Assembly (NCBI RefSeq): GCF_001434665.1
Contig: NZ_AZDG01000003.1
Span: 62,001-126,000, forward strand
Source: Companilactobacillus tucceti DSM 20183
GTDB taxonomy: Bacteria; Bacillota; Bacilli; Lactobacillales; Lactobacillaceae
DNA: 64,000 nucleotides
Reading direction: 5' to 3'
Part shown: positions 6,293-54,531 of the stretch, piece by piece
Position numbering within the stretch: the stretch's first letter is position 1
Layout of the letters: each line of letters begins with the position of its first letter
Program-made: the position numbers and the translations under genes
The notes under the pieces: model-generated
The model's database searches: none
Seen by the model: the letters and a program-made list of their open reading frames with translations, nothing else
What the model was told of the DNA's origin: nothing

Positions 6293-7723
6293 ATGGGTAA
6301 TAAAATTGATTTGGATTTCTTATTACACGGGAAAACAAATCGTAAAAAAACGCTTGGTTTATTTGATCTCTCTATATTGGGGATCGGTGCGATCATTGGA
6401 ACAGGAATTCTAGTTTTGACCGGTATTGTTGCTGCCACAGATGCTGGACCTGGTGTAATTTATTCATTTTTAATTGCAGCTCTAGCCAGTGGTCTTATTG
6501 GCCTATGCTATTCAGAACTAACAACTAGTATTCCAAATTCTGGTAGTGCCTACGTTTATGCCTGGGTAACTATCGGTCAAAATGTTGCTTTCTTTGCTGG
6601 GTGGACTCTACTTGGAGTATACATAACTACAACTGCAACGGTGGCTAACGGATGGACTGGTTATGTCCAATCATTCTTACATGAATTTGGCATTATCCTC
6701 CCTAATGCCCTTATAAAGTCACCATTCAATGGTGGAGTAATAAATCTCCCCGCTGTAATTATGATCATGTTAGTTACATTGATACTCACCCGTGGTACTA
6801 GCGAAAGTAAGGTTCTAAATAATATTTTAGTAATAGTAAAATTGTCGATCATTTTACTATTTGTGGTTGTCAGTTTTGCAGATATTCAGACTAAAAATTG
6901 GTCACCATTTCTACCTTATGGAACTACTGGAGTATTTGCTGGAGCTTCAACTGTATTTTTTGCCTTTTTAGGATTTGACGCTTTGGCAACTTCGGCTGAA
7001 GAAGTTAAAGATGTACAAAAAACTTTACCAAGAGCTATTATCATCTCACTTATAGTTTCCACATTATTATATATAGTTGTAAGCCTAGTTATGACTGGGG
7101 TCATGCACTATAAAAATCTTAACGTCCCTGAAGCTATGTCATTTGTTTTACTTGAAAATGGACATGGAATTTCAGCACAAATTGTTTCAGCTGGAGCAAT
7201 TCTAGGTATTATCGCTGTTGTACTCGCCTTCATCTACGCTTCATCAAATATAACTATGTCAATGAGTCGTGGCGGTTTTCTCCCTAGTAATTTATCCAAA
7301 TTAAACAGTAATACAGGTAGCCCAAATAAGGCCTTATGGTTGATAGGTACTATTGCTTCTGTTTGTGCCGGACTATTGGATATCAAAAATTTAGCAATAT
7401 TTTCTAATGTTGGTTCATTATGCGTCTTCTTTCTCATCTCGTTGATGGTCCTATTATTAAGAAGACAATACCCCAAATTAAACCGACCTTTTAAAGTTCC
7501 ATTTGGAAGAATCATCCCCGTTCTTTCAATGCTTGTATGTGCTTTTCTACTAGTCAACCTGCCGCTCAACGCTTGGCTAAATTATCTCGGATGGTTATTG
7601 ATCGGTGCAGTTATGTATCTATTTTATTCGAGAAAAAATATCAAAATTGAGCTTAAAGATACTACTACAATTAAAGGTGGTGATGCGTCTGATAATGATA
7701 ACGATGATGTCTTACTGGATTAG
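6293..7723 (+). CDS. APC-superfamily amino-acid permease, probably co-operating with alanine dehydrogenase
   Basis: 476 residues and about 12 membrane segments, opening with TLGLFDLSILGIGAIIGTG, the APC signature of the cationic/neutral amino-acid transporter group. It follows ald by two bases with no clear ribosome site, so translation is probably coupled. It is strikingly similar to the permease at 53176-54531 beside the glycine reductase operon; both share LTGIVAATDAGPGVI and SGSAYVY. An acidic tail with DASDNDNDDVLLD is peculiar to this copy. Alanine is the substrate suggested by context; the sequence alone does not prove it. Confidence 0.85.
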   Translation: MGNKIDLDFLLHGKTNRKKTLGLFDLSILGIGAIIGTGILVLTGIVAATDAGPGVIYSFLIAALASGLIGLCYSELTTSIPNSGSAYVYAWVTIGQNVAFFAGWTLLGVYITTTATVANGWTGYVQSFLHEFGIILPNALIKSPFNGGVINLPAVIMIMLVTLILTRGTSESKVLNNILVIVKLSIILLFVVVSFADIQTKNWSPFLPYGTTGVFAGASTVFFAFLGFDALATSAEEVKDVQKTLPRAIIISLIVSTLLYIVVSLVMTGVMHYKNLNVPEAMSFVLLENGHGISAQIVSAGAILGIIAVVLAFIYASSNITMSMSRGGFLPSNLSKLNSNTGSPNKALWLIGTIASVCAGLLDIKNLAIFSNVGSLCVFFLISLMVLLLRRQYPKLNRPFKVPFGRIIPVLSMLVCAFLLVNLPLNAWLNYLGWLLIGAVMYLFYSRKNIKIELKDTTTIKGGDASDNDNDDVLLD

Positions 7724-24967: not shown

Positions 24968-25124
24968 ATTTATCTCTCCTTGACTTGACCATTATACTAG
25001 TTATAGCTTATTAAAACAAAATCAGCATAAGCGAACCTTAAAAATAAAAAATTTTATTTAAAAAACACTTGCTCATGATTTGTTCCTTATGGTACTATAT
25101 AACTCGTTGATTGATAGATCACAT

Positions 25125-25197
25125 GGGTGGCTAGCTCAGCTGGCAGAGCAACGGACTCTTAATCCGTGGGTCCAGGGTTCGATCCCCTGGCCACCCA
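25125..25197 (+). tRNA. tRNA-Lys (anticodon CTT)
   Basis: A full cloverleaf: acceptor arms GGGTGGC and GCCACCC, D arm with AGCTCAGCTGG, anticodon loop CTCTTAA reading CTT, and T loop GGTTCGATCCC. CCA is not encoded. A stem with T residues terminates it shortly downstream. Confidence 0.97.
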
Positions 25198-25210
25198 TAA
25201 TATTACATTT

Positions 25211-25257: not shown

Positions 25258-25568
25258 ATACCCATTAATACCTGACTAGGTGAAATACCATGTCAGGACT
25301 TTTAAGGCTATTACTATGTATTTAAAATATTATATTATATTGCTACGTTTAAGTTAAAGCTTTCTGTTCTTGTTACATGGATATTCGATCTCTCCCATTT
25401 TTATTTTTGAATCCTGTGGGAATTTATGATACATAAATTACTATTAATTGATGACCGATTAGTAGATAATTATTTGTGATAGCAAGTTAATGACGGTGAC
25501 TAACTTCAAGAAAATCTGAGGTGATGCCTCTGATTAAAATAAATGTGTTGCCTCTCGAAAGGATAACC
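25258..25568. other. AT-rich region upstream of the toxin ORF
   Basis: I see no other gene here. It probably contains the toxin promoter and the long 5' leader usual for type I toxins, but no hexamers are convincing enough to mark. Confidence 0.4.
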
Positions 25569-25652
25569 ATGAGTGTTTTTGAAGCTCTCTCGTTTATGAT
25601 ATCTTTTGCAACGTTAGTAGTTATAATACTCAAATTTAATCAAAAAAAATAA
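25569..25652 (+). CDS. Holin-like type I toxin peptide (Hol_Tox/TxpA-like)
   Basis: 27 residues, starting at ATG behind AAAGGAT and opening with MSVFEALSFMISFATLVVI, which matches my recollection of the short 'putative holin-like toxin' family common in lactobacilli. One hydrophobic helix is followed by a short lysine-rich tail (KFNQKK), the plan of membrane-damaging type I toxins. A strong promoter on the opposite strand drives an antisense RNA that overlaps the mRNA 3' end. Too short for most gene callers. Confidence 0.82.
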   Translation: MSVFEALSFMISFATLVVIILKFNQKK

Positions 25653-44400: not shown

Positions 44401-44571
44401 CTAAAAGCTGGACTGTGGTATAAATATTTCTTGCTTAAATATGCTGCCGAAACGTGCAAGAAAACATAGCTTTTTACGTTTAAAACAAATGGCCCCCAAC
44501 AATCCAAGATCGGATTGTTGGGGGCCATTTGCCTTAATACTCGAAAGCTGACCATGTTTTCTTGCACTCTA
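44401..44571. repeat. Dispersed structured intergenic repeat, family B, copy 3
   Basis: It has CTTAAATATGCTGC, ACATAGCTTTTTACG and CTCGAAAGCTGACCATG. The central hairpin is GGCCCCCAACAATCC with its complement and the outer arms GTGCAAGAAAACAT and ATGTTTTCTTGCAC are a perfect 14-pair match, with bases altered together compared with copy 1. It directly follows the grdD stop codon and is the likely terminator of the grd operon. Confidence 0.85.
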
Positions 44572-45726
44572 CTACAAATAGTCTGCCTTCTTTAAAACTT
44601 CACGAGCATGATCTTCATCTTCTGGCGCTACCATAACGACTGGACCTGTACATCCCATGCCGCTTGTAGCGTAAATATCAGCTTTCCAAAGCTCTGTAAC
44701 AGCATCTTCTAGCACTAGAATATCAATACCTAAGATAGCTTCTGAAACGGCTTTTTTAGCAGGTTCTTTGACCTTAGCTTGTTCTTCTTTCTTAGGAGCA
44801 GCTGTCAAATTATCCAATACTTCTGACAAGCCGGCATTTTCGGCAGCTTTATATTCAGCGTTTACTTTATCTATTAAGTTACCCTTCACACACCTACCTG
44901 CATAACTTAATGCACCAGCAATAACGTTAGCTCCTGAAGCACGACTTACAATATTGATAATCTTGTCATACCCTTTACCGGCACCAGGGCCGTATCCTTC
45001 ACCAACAGATTCATAGCTTCCACCTGTTAGAAAAGAGCTCATTACTTTAGTAATGATGTTACCAGTCAAACTATCCATAACCATTATATCTGGGACACCT
45101 TGAAGTAAATCATTACCACGCATTTCTACACCGCCATCAGCACGATGACTCTGTGTAAAATTGATTTCATAACCATTATTTTTTAATTTATTCAATGCTT
45201 TCTCAACTTGATGTGCTCCATCAATATTCAAAATACCTACAGTTGGATTTTCAATACCATTGGCTTTAGCAACACCTATACCAGAGATAGTATTTTTAAC
45301 CATAGCGCTGATGCGCTCCATATCTGAAGTGCCTGTAGTATTGGCTAAAAACATATTTTTGCCAATACCTGGTGTAGTAGAGTGACCCACAGTTGATACA
45401 CCAATTGGGAAAGTGTAATGCATTGTTACTGCGGCATCTAATCTACCATCAGCTAACATCTCATCCATTTTGTTATGCCCATCTTCAGGATCCTTTGCAG
45501 CGACTGTTTCCAGTTTTGTATCCGTCAATGTACCAATAGCAACAACTTCAATGGAGGGATCATTTGCCTGTGCTAACTCAGCTCCGCGAAGAACTTCTTC
45601 TTCACCATGTTCACTACCAAGTAACGTTACACCTACACGAGGTCTGGAGCCAAAATTACCACTCTCTAATCCTTGGGCAATTTCATTAAACACATCAGCA
45701 ATAGTGTTTTGTACGTTATTTTCCAT
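44572..45726 (-). CDS. grdD: Glycine reductase complex protein C, subunit GrdD
   Basis: 384 residues. With GrdC it forms protein C, which releases acetyl phosphate from the carboxymethyl-selenoether on protein A. The PlsX/phosphate-acyltransferase-like fold is suggested by GVTLLGSEHGEEEVLRGAELA and DIMVMDSLTGNIITK; SGMGCTGPVVMVAPE at the C-terminus carries a conserved cysteine. ATG follows AAGGGGGGAG. It is the last gene of the grd operon and is followed directly by a family B repeat. Confidence 0.95.
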   Translation of the reverse strand: MENNVQNTIADVFNEIAQGLESGNFGSRPRVGVTLLGSEHGEEEVLRGAELAQANDPSIEVVAIGTLTDTKLETVAAKDPEDGHNKMDEMLADGRLDAAVTMHYTFPIGVSTVGHSTTPGIGKNMFLANTTGTSDMERISAMVKNTISGIGVAKANGIENPTVGILNIDGAHQVEKALNKLKNNGYEINFTQSHRADGGVEMRGNDLLQGVPDIMVMDSLTGNIITKVMSSFLTGGSYESVGEGYGPGAGKGYDKIINIVSRASGANVIAGALSYAGRCVKGNLIDKVNAEYKAAENAGLSEVLDNLTAAPKKEEQAKVKEPAKKAVSEAILGIDILVLEDAVTELWKADIYATSGMGCTGPVVMVAPEDEDHAREVLKKADYL

Positions 45727-45756
45727 TTTTCTCCCCCCTTAAGGATGGTTTATTCT

Positions 45757-47295
45757 TTATTTTAGAGAATCAGCGAATTTCTTCATTGATTCGGCGATCA
45801 TTTGGCGAATTGTGTCTTTATCGACTGAATCATCTCCAACATGGCCGTCGTTTGTTTCTACAATAAATGAAATACCATCAAAGAGGTTTGTTAATCTTCC
45901 TAGGAACAAGCTACCTTTACCAATGATCATAGTACGGTGAATATCACCATTTTCAATCATTTCTTTAGCATGTCCCAAGAATGGAACACCAGATGGAATG
46001 TGACCTTGTGTAGGCACAAATCCTGGCATACCAATATTTTCAACGACTTGATTTAATTCGTCTCTAGCAAACACTTTTTTCATAATTCCTAAAGCAGCAA
46101 TCATCTTGTAGTTTGCTGAAGGTATGTCTCCAGCACCAGCAGGAACAGTAATTTCAGGATTTTGCATTTCGGCAGAAAATACGTCAACATCTTTAATTGA
46201 TAAACCTGCATGTTCTAGAGGGTCCGCAACAATAGCTTGCATGATAGCTTGTGGAGCAGCACCACTGCCTATCTTATGCTTACCAACAATATCGGTACGG
46301 ATAACAGGAGATTTACCATCGTTTTCACCCACATGAATAGCAAAAGCACCTAAACAGTCTTCAAGAAGTGGTTGATCTTTTTTAACATGATCTTTTCCGT
46401 TCATTCCTAATTTTGCTGATGATCCACCGGCAAGAACTACAATGTTTGAATATACTCCAGCTTGCACAAGGGCTGAAGCTTCTACCATTGAATGAGATGG
46501 TGCGGCACAAAAACTTCTTGTATCTGAACCAGTTGCGTTTACACATCCGCAAATTTCACCGATAGATTTAGCATAATTACCACCGGCACGCTGGAACATA
46601 TCACCACAGCCTTCTTCACTACATTCAATTAAGTAGTCAACATCGTTGGGTTTAATATCATTTTTAGCAAATAATTCAGCTAATACATAAGCTGCTGAGG
46701 CTTTACTTACTAAGTTTTCGAACATAACGTCACTTGTTAAAGCTGCATCAAATTCATGGGCTCTCTTAATGCAACCAACGAGTTTTCCGTCAAGATACAA
46801 TGGTTTTGCATCTTTATCTTCGATCAATGATTTGATTTCATCAACAGTACTGGGGTTTTCTGTCAATTTATCTAAAGTTACCCAATACTTGCCAATTACA
46901 GGATCATCATTTAATTTTTTAGCAATTTCTTCTTGATAGCTGGCTTCTAAAACGACTAGATCAAACATGTCGACGGCTTTCAAACAGCCATAAAACATAT
47001 CCTCAGACATGATTGAACCAAATTTACCGTTAGTAGTAGCATCCTTTAGTGGATGTTCATACCAAGGCTTTTCAATATTCTTTAAATCACGTGGATGAAT
47101 ATTACCAATATAAGCTTGATTAGGTCCATAACCTACAGCATCTTCGAATGAGCGTAAATGATCTGGGATAGCTTTGAGGTAATCTGAGTCTGGATTATTT
47201 CTCATTTCACTCTCTTGCAATTTACCTTCATGTACCAAGATATCCGGTGTATGAACTAATGTATAAGCGGTTCCTTTAAGTACTGGAAAAGTCAT
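45757..47295 (-). CDS. grdC: Glycine reductase complex protein C, subunit GrdC
   Basis: 512 residues from the ATG (MTFPVLKGTAYTLVHTPD) seven bases after GGGGGTG; a TTG start 15 bases upstream has no ribosome site of its own. It is a beta-ketoacyl-synthase III-like acyl-transfer subunit, with LIECSEEGCGDMFQRAGGNY and TRSFCAAPSH holding the cysteines. It accepts the acetyl group from protein A as a thioester, and GrdD helps convert it to acetyl phosphate. A terminator hairpin lies between grdB and this gene. Confidence 0.95.
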   Translation of the reverse strand: MTFPVLKGTAYTLVHTPDILVHEGKLQESEMRNNPDSDYLKAIPDHLRSFEDAVGYGPNQAYIGNIHPRDLKNIEKPWYEHPLKDATTNGKFGSIMSEDMFYGCLKAVDMFDLVVLEASYQEEIAKKLNDDPVIGKYWVTLDKLTENPSTVDEIKSLIEDKDAKPLYLDGKLVGCIKRAHEFDAALTSDVMFENLVSKASAAYVLAELFAKNDIKPNDVDYLIECSEEGCGDMFQRAGGNYAKSIGEICGCVNATGSDTRSFCAAPSHSMVEASALVQAGVYSNIVVLAGGSSAKLGMNGKDHVKKDQPLLEDCLGAFAIHVGENDGKSPVIRTDIVGKHKIGSGAAPQAIMQAIVADPLEHAGLSIKDVDVFSAEMQNPEITVPAGAGDIPSANYKMIAALGIMKKVFARDELNQVVENIGMPGFVPTQGHIPSGVPFLGHAKEMIENGDIHRTMIIGKGSLFLGRLTNLFDGISFIVETNDGHVGDDSVDKDTIRQMIAESMKKFADSLK

Positions 47296-47339
47296 ACTCT
47301 GCACCCCCAAAATAATTGTTTGAAAAAAATGTTACTTAT

Positions 47340-47370
47340 AAAAAAAGGAGTCGAAAAATTTTCGGCTCCT
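47340..47370 (-). terminator. Intrinsic terminator between grdB and grdC
   Basis: On the minus strand AGGAG-C-CGAAAA and TTTTCG-A-CTCCT form a long stem with one mismatch, followed by six or more T residues. It lies within the operon, between grdB and grdC. Confidence 0.7.
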
Positions 47371-47393
47371 AGTTGAAACTCTTGAGCTCCCTA

Positions 47394-48689
47394 CTAGCTA
47401 AACACTGTTTGTTCAGTAACAGGTGTTTCAAGTGCTTTAAGAGCTTTTCTTACTAGTTTTCTACGTAATTCTTTTTCATCTTTTGGATCCAATTCTGGAT
47501 TTCCAAGAGGATATGGAATTGCGACTGTAGGAACGATTCTATTAGCACCAACAGTCTTAGAAATAGGAACAATTGTACACATGTGAACAATTGGGAGTCC
47601 TGTGGCTTCAATAGCCTTAACCATCGTTGCACCGCAACGAGTACAAGTTCCTCAAGTGGATGTAAGAATAACAGCATCAACGCCGTCTTTCTTTAATTGC
47701 CCTGCAATTTCTGTACCAAATTTCTTAGCATTTGCTACAGATGTACCATTACCAACGGTAGCGTACCAATAATCATGTAACGAACCGATTTCACCGTTAG
47801 CAAGCATTTCTTTAATCACGTCGACTGGTAGGACACGATCCAAGTCTTCATTTGCATAGACTGGGTCATAACCACCATGAGCTGTTTGTCCGTTTTCTGG
47901 TGTAAAGTCATCGATATCTTTCAAGCTGTATTTACCATACTTAGATGCACTTGATGATTCGATATGGTCTGGATTTCCTTTAGGAACCGGACCACCAGAT
48001 GATACTAAGGCAATTCTAGCCTTTGTAATATCTTTAACGGCCGGAGCTGGATCGACACGGTCGAAGGTAGGCATTGGATATTCTGTTGCGAACTCCTTGC
48101 CTTGAATTTTATCTACGAGCATTTCAACAGCGCGTTTTGAACCACGTTCTTCTCTGAATACATTTTCACGGAGACCTTTTGGCATATAGCCTGTAATTTC
48201 TTTATTGCCGTCAATAATTTGCTTTGCGACAGAAGACATTGCAGGAATTGCTTTTCTCATTGTAGCAGCACTGTTACCAACTTCTACAAAATATCCGTGC
48301 TTTCTGTATAGCTCAAAACCAGGATTTTCTGGATACATCCCACCAACAACTGGTAAATGAAGATTCTCATCAACCAATTTGGCAACTGCACCAGCAGCGA
48401 CACCGTAACGACCAGCATTAAAACTTGGTCCTACGATAACGAGATCTGGATCGTAGCTTTTGATCATTTCAAGAACAGTTTCTGAAGCTTCTGCTTCATT
48501 TTCATTGAAGTAACTATCACCACATATAACTGTACCAACGATTTCGGCTACATCATTTAGTTGACCTTTAAACGCCATACCAGGTCCAACAACACCGTCT
48601 CTCTTTTCAGGCTTAACATCAGCCTTCTCTTCACCACCGATCCCGGCAAAGAATTGGTTTATGTAATGCACAATTCTTTTTTTGGTCAT
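47394..48689 (-). CDS. grdB: Glycine reductase protein B, selenoprotein subunit GrdB (in-frame TGA)
   Basis: 431 residues if TGA at 47652-47654 is read as selenocysteine, residue 346. The flanking sequence TST-U-GTCTRCGATMVKA is the GrdB U-x-x-C-x-x-C site that binds glycine as a Schiff-base-activated substrate on protein B and passes the carboxymethyl group to protein A. Both sides of the TGA are in the same frame and fit the family length. ATG follows AAAGGAGG. Without Sec readthrough only 345 residues would be made. A SECIS-like hairpin lies at 47624-47640. Confidence 0.93.
47624..47640 (-). promoter_or_regulatory. SECIS-like hairpin in grdB
   Basis: UCGUUGC and GCAACGA form a seven-pair perfect stem with a GGU loop, with the loop 22-24 bases from the first base of UGA. 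The spacing and the GGU at the tip match the bacterial SECIS plan recognised by SelB in formate dehydrogenase mRNAs. Confidence 0.75.
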
Positions 48690-48730
48690 TTTATTTCCTC
48701 CTTTACAAAAGGTTTGGGAAGTAGTGAAAA

Positions 48731-49180
48731 CTATCCACGATATTCTTGTACTTCTTTGTTTATAGCGTCTTTATCTAATACCATTTCCATCATTGATACT
48801 TGTTCGTCATATACTGCTGGATCTACTTCATCTTTTAGTTCAAACATGTGATATGCTTTGAGTCCTAACTGGACTCCTGCTAATGGACCAGCGAATGTTG
48901 GATCACCAGTTGATACGGTTTCAGCAGCCAAGCCACAAGCTTCTGCTTCTCCACCACCTAGTACTACTACTAGATCGTCTTTTCCGTATTTGTCTGTAAG
49001 ATCTTTAATTCTTTGTTGGTTTTCCAAGTCCATAGCTCCCGCGCTTGTTCAAACAAAGCATTCAGTTGTTGAAAATACAACTTCTGCGCCCGCTGTTTTT
49101 ACACAAGCCTCGATAGCCATACCAGGAATTCCATCACGGTCGCCTAAAATGGCGATCTTTTTGTTTTCAAGAATACCCAT
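48731..49180 (-). CDS. grdA: Glycine reductase selenoprotein A (GrdA, in-frame TGA)
   Basis: 149 residues when the TGA at 49049-49051 is read as selenocysteine, at residue 44, the same position as in clostridial selenoprotein A. The context [18 protein letters not shown] is the diagnostic GrdA signature. Protein A carries the carboxymethyl-selenoether that is reduced by thioredoxin. Start ATG at 49180 follows GAAGGAGAG, and [17 protein letters not shown] is the usual N-terminus. Neither half alone would be active. A convincing SECIS stem is less obvious than in grdB. Confidence 0.95.
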
Positions 49181-49232
49181 AATGTGCTCTCCTTCAATTT
49201 TATTAAATTTAATGTTTACTATAATTTCGTTA

Positions 49233-50522
49233 TTAGATTGTTTTAGCTGATAGATTGAAGAATCCTAGTTCATTTGTTGAACCAGTGATTACTTGAAGTT
49301 CAGCTTCAATTGATCCATCTTCACGAAGACTTCCATCCCAAGCACCAGCAATAATGTTGGCAACTTCTGGATGTCCGATAACTGTATCCATAACTGGAAG
49401 ATCGATAACTTCATTGGCGTTACCCGCAGTTACAACGGCGTCTCCTTTTGGAGTTGAATCTGCTAATGATTGACTGGCACCATCTTGTCCAGCATACTCA
49501 TCAGTTACAAGAACTGTCTTAATACCTTTATTTTCAAGGTTGTTACAGTTCATAACTAAGTCAGCGTCAGGATTACCAAATCCTTCTTCTGAGATGATTG
49601 CTGCATCTGCGCCAAGCATTTCAACCAATTTAGCAGTCATATTTGATGAACGTTTCTTATCTTGTAGCGTTACGTTCTCATTGGTAATGACACATCCGAT
49701 AAAGTTAATATCTTTACCATGTCTTGAATATAAATCATCGATAACTGGACTATTCAGATGTACATATGATGGATTCTTATCACAAGCTGAAACACAGTTA
49801 CCACTTGTAATAGCTCCATCAAATACTTCTGTTGGATACATAAACGTTGGAACTATCTTCATAGCATTTGCGCCATAGAAGAAGGTGTTATGCATAAGTC
49901 CTTGTGTTTGTAGTGCATATACATATACGACTTTTGGTAGATCAGGATATTGTTTAACTTGTTCTAGAAGTGGCTTTGTTTCATATACCTTTTCTTCATC
50001 AGGTTCAACATTTCTTCCTGCTTCACCAATATAGTTGGCAGCTCTAAAACCAGCTAAACGAATTACTTCTTCATGTTCATGCTGCTTGATGCTGTCAATT
50101 GGTTCCATCTTAATTACAATATTATTTAGTTTTGAGAATGGTGTATATTTAGCACCTTCACCACTCATATCAATGATTCCTTCTTGGAATCCAACAATCT
50201 TACCAGTTGTTACAACTGCTGCACCTTTAAGTACATGTGTACGTCCTGAACCAACTTGGTCAACATCCCCAATAACACCTGGGAAAATATTGCCTTTTCC
50301 GTCAACTTTACAACGTGGTTCAATGACATCTTTAACTGGAATGATACGAGTCTTGTCACCTGGTTTTGCTAAATACACATCAAGAGATTTGATTCTTTCA
50401 TCTCCGCCTGTTGCGGCTTCGATCAATTCGTCTTTATCAACGAAAAGTGTGCCATCTTTAACTTCGGTTTTTGAGCCGAAGGCAATATCTTTTATTAGGA
50501 TATTGCCAATTTCTAATCGCAT
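49233..50522 (-). CDS. grdE: Glycine reductase protein B proprotein GrdE
   Basis: 429 residues. GrdE is cleaved at an internal cysteine to give two subunits, the new end becoming a pyruvoyl group that binds the substrate amine. The site [10 protein letters not shown] is present with Cys243 and Cys247, very near the position known in clostridial GrdE. GrdE pairs with GrdB and, together with gene order, defines glycine rather than sarcosine or betaine specificity. ATG follows GGAGGG. It lies between trxA and grdA, the canonical place. Confidence 0.95.
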
Positions 50523-50572
50523 AATATCCCTCCATTCCTTGCCTATTTGCAGTTATTCAATCAATGATGAAA

Positions 50573-50908
50573 CTAAACTGTTAATTCATCTAGTTTAGCT
50601 GTTACAGCTGCCATTCCTTTTTCTTCAAGAATGTCTTTTCCTAGAGAAGCAACTTTCTCACCATCTTTATAGAATAGATATGCTGGGATGCCCATTACTT
50701 TTTGTTTCATGGCCATTCTCATATTTCCTGTAGTATCAAATGCGTAGAATGTAGCTACATCAGATTTTTCGTCTGATAGTTTTTCAACATCAGGCATCAA
50801 TGCCATACATGGTACGCATTTTGGACTAAAGAAATCCACCATAACTAAACCTTTCGAATTACTGATTGTTTCTTCAAAGTTCTCCTTTGTAAGATGTTCC
50901 ATCATCAT
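50573..50908 (-). CDS. trxA: Thioredoxin of the glycine reductase operon
   Basis: 111 residues. The redox site is KCVPC (Cys31, Cys34) rather than WCGPC. Clostridial thioredoxins that serve glycine reductase also carry a CVPC-type centre, so it is the specific reductant of GrdA. The cis-proline is in VMGIPAYLFYKDGEKV. Three adjacent ATG codons follow AAGGGGG; the first is taken. It sits between trxB and grdE. Confidence 0.93.
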   Translation of the reverse strand: MMMEHLTKENFEETISNSKGLVMVDFFSPKCVPCMALMPDVEKLSDEKSDVATFYAFDTTGNMRMAMKQKVMGIPAYLFYKDGEKVASLGKDILEEKGMAAVTAKLDELTV

Positions 50909-51006
50909 CTTCGCCCCCTTTCAATTTTTTATCTTTGAAATCTAATACAGGACTAAATTTCAAAGATAAAAAATTTAGATCTCTCTAAACTTTTTATTCA
51001 TCTGTT

Positions 51007-52251
51007 TTAGACTTCAACAGATTCTTTCAATAAATCTTCTAATGCTTCTGGAGTAATATTCTTTGTACCTTCAAGACGAGCTATATCTTTTCCATCTTTG
51101 AACAATACAATAGTAGGAATTTCTGAAACATTATATTGTGTAGCTGTTTTCTTTGCTCTATATGTATCAAGTTTTACTAATCCAATAGAACCATTTTTCT
51201 CTTCGACAACCTTATCCACAATAGCGATCGAATCAATACTTTCTTCTACCTGTGGTGCCCAAAATGCCAAGATAACTGGTTTCTTTTTACTTTCATCAAG
51301 AACATCATTTTGTAGTGTTTCTAGTTCTGATAAGTACTTTTCAGCTGCAGATGCGGCAATAGCTCCATCAGCTGCTGCTGTTACAACTTGACGTAGATAC
51401 TTAACTCTTGCATCCCCTACTGCGTAAACTCCAGGAACGTTAGTTTCCATCATATCGTTAGCAACAAGATAACCACGATCATCTAATTCAACTTTTCCTT
51501 TAAGAAAGTCTGTATGTGGTTCTGTACCAATAAATACAAAGACACCATTTGTCTCTAAGTCTGTTAGTTCGCCAGTATTGATGTTCTTTAGAACAACTTT
51601 TTCTACTAGTTCGTCACCAGCAATTTCTTCAACAGTTGAATTCCAGACCCACTTGAGTTTTGGATTCTTCATAGCCTTTTCAGCACTGGCTTTATTACAA
51701 TCAAGATTTCCTTCTTCATGAATAACAATGATAGTTACTGTTTCAGCAAATTTAGTTAAATACATTGCCTCTTCAATGGCAGCATCACCATTACCTACGA
51801 CTACAACATCTAAATCTACAAAGAAATCAGCGTCACAAGTTGCACAATAACTTACACCTTTACCTCTTAGTTCAGCCTCTCCTTTGACATTGATTTTTCT
51901 AGGAGTAGCACCTGGTGACAAGATAACCACTTTAGACTCATAAGTATCGCCTTGTTGTGTATGGACTGTTTTAATAGGTCCAGTAAAATCAACTTCATCA
52001 ACTGTGCCTCTTAAAAATTCTGTGCCAAATGCTTTAGCATGATCTGCAAATTCCTTCATAATTCCAGGACCTGTAGTACCTTTATAAAATCCCGGATAAT
52101 TTTCCATTTCATCTGTTGTTGAAGCTTGTCCACCTGGTTCAGCATTCTTATCCAATACAGCAGTCTTCATTTTTGCACGACTTCCATAAATACCTGCAGC
52201 TAAACCACCGGGTCCTGCACCAACAATTAAAAGATCATATATCTCTGACAT
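51007..52251 (-). CDS. trxB: Thioredoxin reductase with fused C-terminal thioredoxin-like domain
   Basis: 414 residues from the ATG after AGGGAGGAG; an ATG seven codons earlier is unlikely. FAD loop VGAGPGGLAAG (about 10-20), active-site CATC (Cys136, Cys139) and YAVGDARVKYLRQVVTAA make up a low-molecular-weight reductase of about 315 residues. The nucleotide loop VVGNGDAAIEE is kept but the NADPH-phosphate motif HRRxxxR is replaced by IHEEGNLDCNK. Residues 322-414 are an extra thioredoxin fold whose WCxxC is WAPQV, so it has no redox pair. Donor may be NADH rather than NADPH. Confidence 0.9.
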   Translation of the reverse strand: MSEIYDLLIVGAGPGGLAAGIYGSRAKMKTAVLDKNAEPGGQASTTDEMENYPGFYKGTTGPGIMKEFADHAKAFGTEFLRGTVDEVDFTGPIKTVHTQQGDTYESKVVILSPGATPRKINVKGEAELRGKGVSYCATCDADFFVDLDVVVVGNGDAAIEEAMYLTKFAETVTIIVIHEEGNLDCNKASAEKAMKNPKLKWVWNSTVEEIAGDELVEKVVLKNINTGELTDLETNGVFVFIGTEPHTDFLKGKVELDDRGYLVANDMMETNVPGVYAVGDARVKYLRQVVTAAADGAIAASAAEKYLSELETLQNDVLDESKKKPVILAFWAPQVEESIDSIAIVDKVVEEKNGSIGLVKLDTYRAKKTATQYNVSEIPTIVLFKDGKDIARLEGTKNITPEALEDLLKESVEV

Positions 52252-52292
52252 AAAACTCTCCTCCCTACACATAAGACAATTTATAAGTCTAT

Positions 52293-52679
52293 TTATTCAT
52301 GGTATTCATAAGGTAATCCATCAATAGCCGAATCTAATAGGTCCAAATCTATCACTTGAAAATCCTCTAAGACACTTTCAGCATATCCACGTCTTCTAGG
52401 ACCTAATTTCTTTAACACTTGATTAGCCCCCTCAATTAAAGTTAACGAGAACATATCCAAATCGCCTTTTCGATCGCTCAAAACTAAACTCTTATATGGG
52501 CTTTGATTGGGTTTGATACTTCCAGCAAGTGGATGATTAATCAAATTGGCGCCTAAATGAATGGCATCTCTACTGTGATTAAAAATATCCCCAACTGTTG
52601 AATCTTCTTCAAATTCTGTAATTTCTGGATATTTCTCTTCAACCATCGGATTATTGGTTAAAATATAAAAATTCGCCAT
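52293..52679 (-). CDS. grdX: Glycine reductase operon protein GrdX
   Basis: 128 residues. The N-terminus MANFYILTNNPMVEEKYP and the middle DIFNHSRDAIHLGANLINHPLAGSIKPNQ match my memory of GrdX, a protein of unknown role that heads glycine reductase operons in clostridia. It is the first gene here, 47 bases after the -10 hexamer, with AAAGGGGG before its ATG. Its presence makes the operon identical in order to the clostridial grdX-trxB-trxA-grdE-grdA-grdB-grdC-grdD type. Confidence 0.87.
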   Translation of the reverse strand: MANFYILTNNPMVEEKYPEITEFEEDSTVGDIFNHSRDAIHLGANLINHPLAGSIKPNQSPYKSLVLSDRKGDLDMFSLTLIEGANQVLKKLGPRRRGYAESVLEDFQVIDLDLLDSAIDGLPYEYHE

Positions 52680-52726: not shown

Positions 52727-52764
52727 AATATAGCGTACTATATTGTGATTTGCAAGCGCTTTCG
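52727..52764 (-). promoter_or_regulatory. Promoter of the grd operon with overlapping cre site
   Basis: On the minus strand TTGCAA (-35, 52750-52755) and TATATT (-10, 52727-52732) are 17 bases apart. The cre-like sequence TGCAAGCGCTTTCG (52751-52764, plus strand reading) has two mismatches to the consensus and overlaps the -35, so CcpA bound here would block polymerase. Confidence 0.65.
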
Positions 52765-53175: not shown

Positions 53176-54531
53176 CTAATATATGACATGAGATTTAGAA
53201 TAAGTAATGTATAGCAATAATCCGATTGCTAACCAGCCGAGATAATTCATCCAAGCGGTAATTGGCAAATTAAATAGTAATAAAACGCAGACAGAAGCAG
53301 ATAACACTGGTAAAACAATTCCAAAAGGAACTTTAAATGGACGTTTTAAATCTGGATGTTGTTTTCTTAACAGAACCACTGAAACCGAGATCAATAGAAA
53401 AATACACAAAGATCCTACATTGGCGAAAGTGGCCAGTTTCTTAATGTCTAATAATCCTGAACAAATAGAAGTTATTATACCTATCATCCACAGAGACTTA
53501 TTCGGTGTCTGTGTATTTTTATTCAACTTACTAAAGGATGATGGTATAAATCCTCCACGACTCATAGCCATGGCGATATTCGAAGATGCATAAATGAAGG
53601 CTAGAATAACCGCTAGAATACCTAAGATAGCTCCAAGTGAAACAATTTCAGCAACGATTGGATGATCAACAGTAATTAAAACAAATGACATTGCCTCTGG
53701 AACATTCAATAAGTTATACTTAACGTCTCCAGTCATTACTAAACTAACAATGATGTACAGCAATGTTGATATAGCCAGTGATGAAATAATAGCTATAGGT
53801 AAATTTTTTTGAACTTTTTTACAATCTTCTGCTGAAGTTGCCAAAGCATCAAAACCTAAAAACGAGAAGAAGACAGTTGATGCTCCTGTAAAAATACCTT
53901 TCACACCAAACGGTAAAAATGGTTTCCAATTAGTCGTTTTAATATGAAAAGATCCAACGACAACAAATAGTATGATAATTCCTATCTTAACTAGAACCAA
54001 AACATCGTTAACGACCTTACTTTCACTCATACCTCTTGTTAGTAAAAGTGTTATAAGCAAAACAATAATAACTGCCGGTAGATTTACCAATCCTCCATTA
54101 AATGGTGATAAAATTAAATCCTTAGGCAAATTAATTCCAACTTCTCTCAGGAATGAGGCTACATACCCTGTCCATCCAGTTGCGACAGTCGCAGTGGTTG
54201 TTATATAAACCCCAAGTAATGTCCAACCTGAGAAAAACGCTATTTGCTCACCCATTGTTATCCACGAATAAACATAAGCACTACCCGAACTCGGTATGGC
54301 GGTAGTTAATTCTGAATAACATAATCCGATCAAAGCACTTGCCAAGGCAGCAATTAGAAATGAAAATATTACCCCCGGACCAGCATCTGTAGCAGCTACA
54401 ATTCCAGTTAAAACTAAAATTCCAGTACCAATAATGGCTCCAACACCCATAATAGTTAGATCGAAAAGTCCTAACGTTTTGGGTTTGTTTTTTGAAACAT
54501 TTATTAAATCCTCAATTGATTTTCGTCGCAT
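53176..54531 (-). CDS. APC-superfamily amino-acid permease next to the grd operon
   Basis: 451 residues and about 12 membrane segments, closely related to the permease at 6293-7723 (shared TLGLFDL and GVGAIIGTGILVLTGIV blocks, DIKKLATFANVGSLCIF) but without its acidic tail. It is transcribed in the same direction as the grd genes, from its own promoter, ending 500 bases ahead of them. By context glycine import for the reductase is the likely job. The family also includes cationic amino-acid carriers, so specificity is not proven. Confidence 0.83.
   Translation of the reverse strand: MRRKSIEDLINVSKNKPKTLGLFDLTIMGVGAIIGTGILVLTGIVAATDAGPGVIFSFLIAALASALIGLCYSELTTAIPSSGSAYVYSWITMGEQIAFFSGWTLLGVYITTTATVATGWTGYVASFLREVGINLPKDLILSPFNGGLVNLPAVIIVLLITLLLTRGMSESKVVNDVLVLVKIGIIILFVVVGSFHIKTTNWKPFLPFGVKGIFTGASTVFFSFLGFDALATSAEDCKKVQKNLPIAIISSLAISTLLYIIVSLVMTGDVKYNLLNVPEAMSFVLITVDHPIVAEIVSLGAILGILAVILAFIYASSNIAMAMSRGGFIPSSFSKLNKNTQTPNKSLWMIGIITSICSGLLDIKKLATFANVGSLCIFLLISVSVVLLRKQHPDLKRPFKVPFGIVLPVLSASVCVLLLFNLPITAWMNYLGWLAIGLLLYITYSKSHVIY

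Follow-up and report, generated by a model that had tools for sequence, protein, structure and literature searches.

A selenocysteine-dependent glycine reductase operon of clostridial type in Companilactobacillus

The grd locus and its selenocysteine codons

The window analysed here, a stretch of 64,000 nucleotides from Companilactobacillus tucceti DSM 20183, carries on its minus strand (positions 44572–52679) the eight genes grdX-trxB-trxA-grdE-grdA-grdB-grdC-grdD. Families were assigned with NCBIfam and Pfam models and the strand was read with TGA as selenocysteine (Sec); read in this way, all eight genes are intact and full length (Table 1). A preliminary description of this DNA had named the same genes, and its coordinates, order and strand were right, as was its statement that every subunit is complete. 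The best match of the trxA product is the clostridial TrxA model NF047697 (110.9 bits, under the cut-off of 140). The trxB product has an extra C-terminal thioredoxin-like domain that lacks CxxC (Pfam Thioredoxin at residues 321–405).

Table 1. Features of the grd locus (positions in the window)
Feature	Position	Strand	Assignment
Amino acid permease (BcaP-like)	53176..54531	-	Directly 5´ of grdX; candidate substrate importer
cre-like site (CcpA)	52751..52763	+	Upstream of grdX; overlaps the -35 of a promoter-like site, 52755-52727 (-)
grdX	52293..52679	-	NCBIfam GrdX NF038093, 116.2 bits (cut-off 40)
trxB	51007..52272	-	421 aa; TIGR01292 over cut-off
trxA	50573..50908	-	Thioredoxin of the reductase system; Pfam Thioredoxin
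grdE	49233..50522	-	Component B proprotein; Pfam Gly_reductase, 695.5 bits
grdA	48731..49180	-	Selenoprotein A; NF040748, 249.5 bits (cut-off 130)
grdB	47394..48689	-	Selenoprotein B; glycine-specific TIGR01917, 637.9 bits (cut-off 602.2)
grdB SECIS	47614..47651	-	Rfam RF01990 SECIS_4; starts directly after the grdB TGA
grdC	45757..47310	-	Component C subunit beta; NF040746, 766.9 bits (cut-off 450)
grdD	44572..45726	-	Component C subunit alpha; NF040747, 568.7 bits (cut-off 350)
Hairpin	44479..44542	-	Just 3´ of grdD; probable operon terminator

The key residues to which the preliminary description had pointed are in place. In GrdA, the CxxU motif, in the form CFVU, occupies residues 41–44, and Sec44 is encoded by an in-frame TGA at 49051–49049 (codon 44). 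In GrdB, Sec346 opens the motif UGTCTRC, an instance of UxxCxxC, and is encoded by a TGA at 47654–47652 (codon 346). The cleavage-site motif of GrdE, NCVSAC, is present, as it is in 108 of the 109 GrdE matches examined. Both TGAs are retained in all nine species that carry the operon, where they are its only internal stops. The grdB codon is followed by a SECIS_4 element scoring 60.2 bits against a gathering score of 38 (E 8.7e-12); downstream of the grdA codon, folding revealed no clear SECIS structure (z -0.31). The region around the probable terminator (44470–44560) folds at -46 kcal/mol (z -8.95), and the Rfam miRNA matches at 44456–44565, all below the gathering score, are look-alikes of this hairpin. 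Elsewhere in the window, the Listeria sRNA rli28 has a match at 25455–25639 (98.7 bits, gathering score 45), just after a tRNA-Lys gene (25124–25198).

The locus shares all components and both Sec sites with the glycine reductase genes of C. difficile (trxA2-trxB3-grdXEABCD) and Clostridium litorale (grdAB), and is also like the clostridial operon in the pro-GrdE site, the thioredoxin system and a CcpA-type control suggested by cre. It differs in its host, a member of the Lactobacillaceae, and in the additional domain of TrxB. The enzyme is a canonical glycine reductase; what surprises is the host family, the mosaic origin and the double set of Stickland reductases described below.

Host genome, distribution and ancestry

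Clostridial DNA joined to a lactobacillus contig, by contamination or misassembly, would produce a similar picture, and the G+C content of the operon (37.9%) does exceed that of the remainder of the window (33.9%). The third-position G+C of most operon genes, however, is about 0.25, the value of the adjoining permease gene. The host genome (2.17 Mb) is 99.3% complete with 0.07% contamination. Among 36 Companilactobacillus genomes, nine encode a full GrdB. In these nine, the operon occupies one and the same site, keeps its gene order and has the same conserved permease upstream, and one of them (G419) is a single contig of 2.67 Mb. GrdE is 86–99% identical within the genus and at most 79% identical outside it: the nearest named matches are Companilactobacillus kedongensis (97%), zhongbaensis and furfuricola (both 90%), mishanensis (89%) and versmoldensis (86%), and the next is a Ruminococcaceae (79%). 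The median pairwise dN/dS across the nine species is 0.05–0.09 for each operon gene, which indicates that the operon is under purifying selection. Because it recurs at one site in nine genomes and is under such selection, we conclude that it is neither contamination nor misassembly, an explanation to which we assign practically no probability. The host is a lactic acid bacterium, as had been supposed: all genomes with the operon at this site come from its own genus, and those of them that are named are Companilactobacillus species.

The expectation that Stickland selenoenzymes would be foreign to lactic acid bacteria does not hold for the order as a whole. Of 395 Lactobacillales genomes sampled, 27 have GrdA, the present genome being the sole one of its family among these, and PrdA of D-proline reductase was over cut-off in 23 of the 395. 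Among 398 Lactobacillaceae genomes, matches over cut-off were confined to Companilactobacillus and a single genome of another genus (G438 of genus g95), whose grd cluster resembles those of the other Lactobacillales and is, by gene order and tree, of separate origin. In the open-access literature, searched mostly by titles and abstracts, we found no report of a glycine reductase operon in Lactobacillaceae or lactobacilli, and no paper on grd, Sec decoding, Stickland metabolism or 5-aminovalerate in Companilactobacillus; one paper lists grdB for Enterococcus durans. Several features of the sampled genomes may be recorded here. In G438, selB, a cysteine desulfurase gene and selA lie near the independent grd cluster (L204). 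Some other Lactobacillales genomes have two grdA copies per grd cluster (L211, L213, L218 and L221). In grd-negative Companilactobacillus genomes, stretches of about 170 residues resemble the N-terminal part of GrdB (L175–L182) and perhaps represent NCBIfam GrdB_like_no_Se.

The occurrence of grd and prd in other Lactobacillales families could mean that the operon and the Sec machinery were inherited vertically within the order and lost elsewhere, and the grouping of Companilactobacillus SelA and SelB with Lactobacillales agrees with this. The other Lactobacillales families and genus g95 likewise have a Sec-dependent GrdA, and GrdB where they hold one, but their grd genes are arranged as grdX-E-A-B-trxB-trxA-C-D, in variants of that order or in split clusters, with a short TrxB where measured, and share only about 60% identity with the Companilactobacillus genes. 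In a GrdE+GrdB tree (70 sequences; quick tree searches with SH-aLRT as the only support), the operons of the nine Companilactobacillus genomes are monophyletic (support 100) and nest in a clade of 15 rows (100) with Oscillospiraceae, Defluviitaleaceae and uncultured clostridia. The sequences from other Lactobacillales, 16 in number, fall in a separate clade (100), sister to Peptostreptococcaceae/Peptoniphilaceae, and a joint clade of all Lactobacillales grd is rejected (AU p 2e-58). We consequently reject vertical inheritance as highly improbable for grd; it may apply to the Sec genes.

The suspicion that the operon clusters with clostridia is borne out by this tree, which points to a gut-type clostridial donor related to Oscillospiraceae/Defluviitaleaceae. 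The long TrxB agrees, being common to the loci L045, L046, L047 and L049, while other clostridial forms measure about 316–353 aa. The closest relative outside the genus is Ruminococcaceae bacterium OttesenSCG-928-I18 (L045), a single-cell genome from cockroach gut in the same clade, with the long TrxB, identical gene order, and GrdE and GrdA identities of 79% and 82%; it differs in that its trxA, grdC and grdD are just 53–68% identical. Glycine reductase A and B account for as much as 10% of the transcripts of this bacterium (PMC10266427). Its clade mates L046 and L047 carry sel genes that are not closely related to the Companilactobacillus ones. In sparse trees from quick searches, again with SH-aLRT support only, the SelA and SelB of Companilactobacillus fall beside those of another Lactobacillaceae genus and of further Lactobacillales. 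Since grd is clostridial and SelA and SelB are of Lactobacillales type, selenoenzymes and decoding machinery appear to differ in ancestry.

Selenocysteine machinery and D-proline reductase

The genome encodes SelA, SelB, SelD and tRNA-Sec, the Sec machinery for which the preliminary description had called. One cluster on another contig (G000:C45) comprises selA, a cysteine desulfurase-family gene, selB, yedF and selD, and the SelA, SelB, SelD and YedF products are all over cut-off. A tRNA-Sec gene with anticodon TCA (67.7 bits, cut-off 47) is found nearby. Between the sel cluster and the tRNA lies a D-proline reductase operon with prdC (Sec), prdA, prdB (Sec), prdD, a prdE-like gene and prdF; the whole region, including a TauE-like permease gene, spans G000:C45:16726-31069 (from 6726 in L120 to 5069 in L134). 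PrdA, PrdB, PrdC and PrdD are over their cut-offs (TIGR04480 970.4, TIGR04483 415.6, TIGR04481 560.2 and TIGR04482 342.6), and PrdF best matches proline racemase (NF010576, 510.3, under the cut-off of 556). D-proline reductase is, like glycine reductase, a Sec-dependent Stickland reductase of the same cell, here beside the Sec machinery. It is nevertheless a different enzyme, encoded outside the window; prd is lost in C. furfuricola and occurs without grd in genome G142.

The loss in C. furfuricola (G399) bears on the idea that the grd operon is a decaying relic, acquired once and now out of use. In this species, the companion prd operon is destroyed by a within-contig deletion that cuts prdC off at residue 379, ahead of its Sec, and joins it to the end of prdF (L236, G399:C17, 2807–4077); the fusion keeps the last 76 residues of prdF, and prdA and prdB are gone. 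However, selA, selB, selD, tRNA-Sec and an intact grd operon are all kept, from which we infer that grd alone is enough to maintain the Sec system. SelB is over cut-off in 10 of the 36 Companilactobacillus genomes, namely the nine with grd and the prd-only G142, and in none of those without grd or prd. Together with the low dN/dS of each gene and the two TGAs kept in nine species, this leads us to reject the relic as having only the slightest probability, and the operon is probably in use.

Proposed function, regulation and meaning

The steps that follow are taken from the biochemistry of the clostridial family. Electrons would pass from NADPH through TrxB and TrxA to selenoprotein A. Glycine would be bound by component B (GrdE/GrdB, with Sec346) via a pyruvoyl-type carbonyl, with release of ammonia, and selenoprotein A (Sec44) would carry the carboxymethyl group. 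Component C (GrdC/GrdD) would then form acetyl phosphate, from which acetate kinase would give acetate and ATP; the host genome has two acetate kinase matches (TIGR00016) over cut-off. Sec would be inserted by SelA, SelB, SelD and tRNA-Sec encoded elsewhere in the genome and of Lactobacillales rather than donor type. Formation of ATP from glycine in these cells is thus inferred by analogy.

An intact operon might instead serve mainly as an electron sink, or act on sarcosine or betaine, with ATP from glycine of little account. GrdE and GrdB score strongly with the sarcosine models NF040793 and NF040794, and D-proline reductase, also present in this genome, is a typical electron sink. The GrdF, GrdG and GrdH models for sarcosine or betaine reductase nevertheless stay under cut-off (NF040794 647.1 against 800, NF040793 616.7 against 780, NF040795 524.3 against 775), whereas the glycine-specific TIGR01917 is passed, and the genome has a single full-length B component. 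A sink for electrons and a yield of ATP are, moreover, not exclusive, because the product of component C is acetyl phosphate. We consider the alternative unlikely and retain glycine as the probable substrate. No Rnf complex is evident in the genome, the sole rnfC match being PrdC, below cut-off. Reductant supply and energy coupling would therefore differ from those of C. difficile, and proline reduction would act as a redox sink and not as an ion pump.

Upstream of grdX is a gap of 245–496 bases, of which only the last ~100 are conserved. In each of the nine species, the cre-like site stands 84–86 bases before grdX and has 0–2 mismatches to WTGNAARCGNWWWCW. By chance, roughly one match to the relaxed cre pattern would occur in every 64 kb, so that the weight lies on the fixed position and not on the match alone, and the nine species are related to each other. 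The grd operon of C. difficile is repressed by CcpA, which there binds a cre within grdX (PMC3510511); in Companilactobacillus, the site is instead upstream of grdX and over the promoter. From the predicted cre and promoter, the operon is probably under CcpA control and repressed while sugar is present. Upstream of prdC, no cre site recurred consistently, and between 44000 and 55200 no glycine riboswitch was found, even at a relaxed threshold. The permease gene 5´ of grdX has orthologues (81–91% identity) in exactly the other eight grd-positive Companilactobacillus genomes, always beside grdX, and its best other match within the genus is about 70%. An amino acid permease at 6293–7723 of the window is also about 70% identical to it and is probably its paralogue. 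The grd-linked orthologues and the ~70% paralogues suggest that a duplicated native permease was recruited to the grd system.

In conclusion, it is very likely, judging from sequence, that the product of the locus is a functional Sec-dependent glycine reductase and that an ancestor of one Companilactobacillus lineage obtained the genes from a gut clostridium of the Oscillospiraceae/Defluviitaleaceae kind. On balance, we also favour a broader proposal, that this is a lineage of Lactobacillaceae with a Stickland-type energy metabolism and two Sec-dependent reductases, in which a clostridial grd operon that came without Sec genes of its own runs on lactobacillar Sec machinery, under carbon catabolite control and with a duplicated permease as importer. 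Lactobacilli are generally seen as sugar fermenters that draw little energy from amino acids, and to our knowledge they are not expected to have genetically encoded selenocysteine. They are usually grown on sugars, a condition in which CcpA would silence the operon.

The carriers are a small group of food-type lactobacilli within Companilactobacillus. For these species, glycine appears to be a source of ATP and proline an outlet for electrons, with selenium required. If true, this bears on survival after sugar runs out, and on flavour and ammonia in fermented food and on selenium-enriched products. It also bears on the movement of Sec-dependent pathways between bacteria, in that selenoenzymes and the machinery that decodes them may come together from different ancestries.
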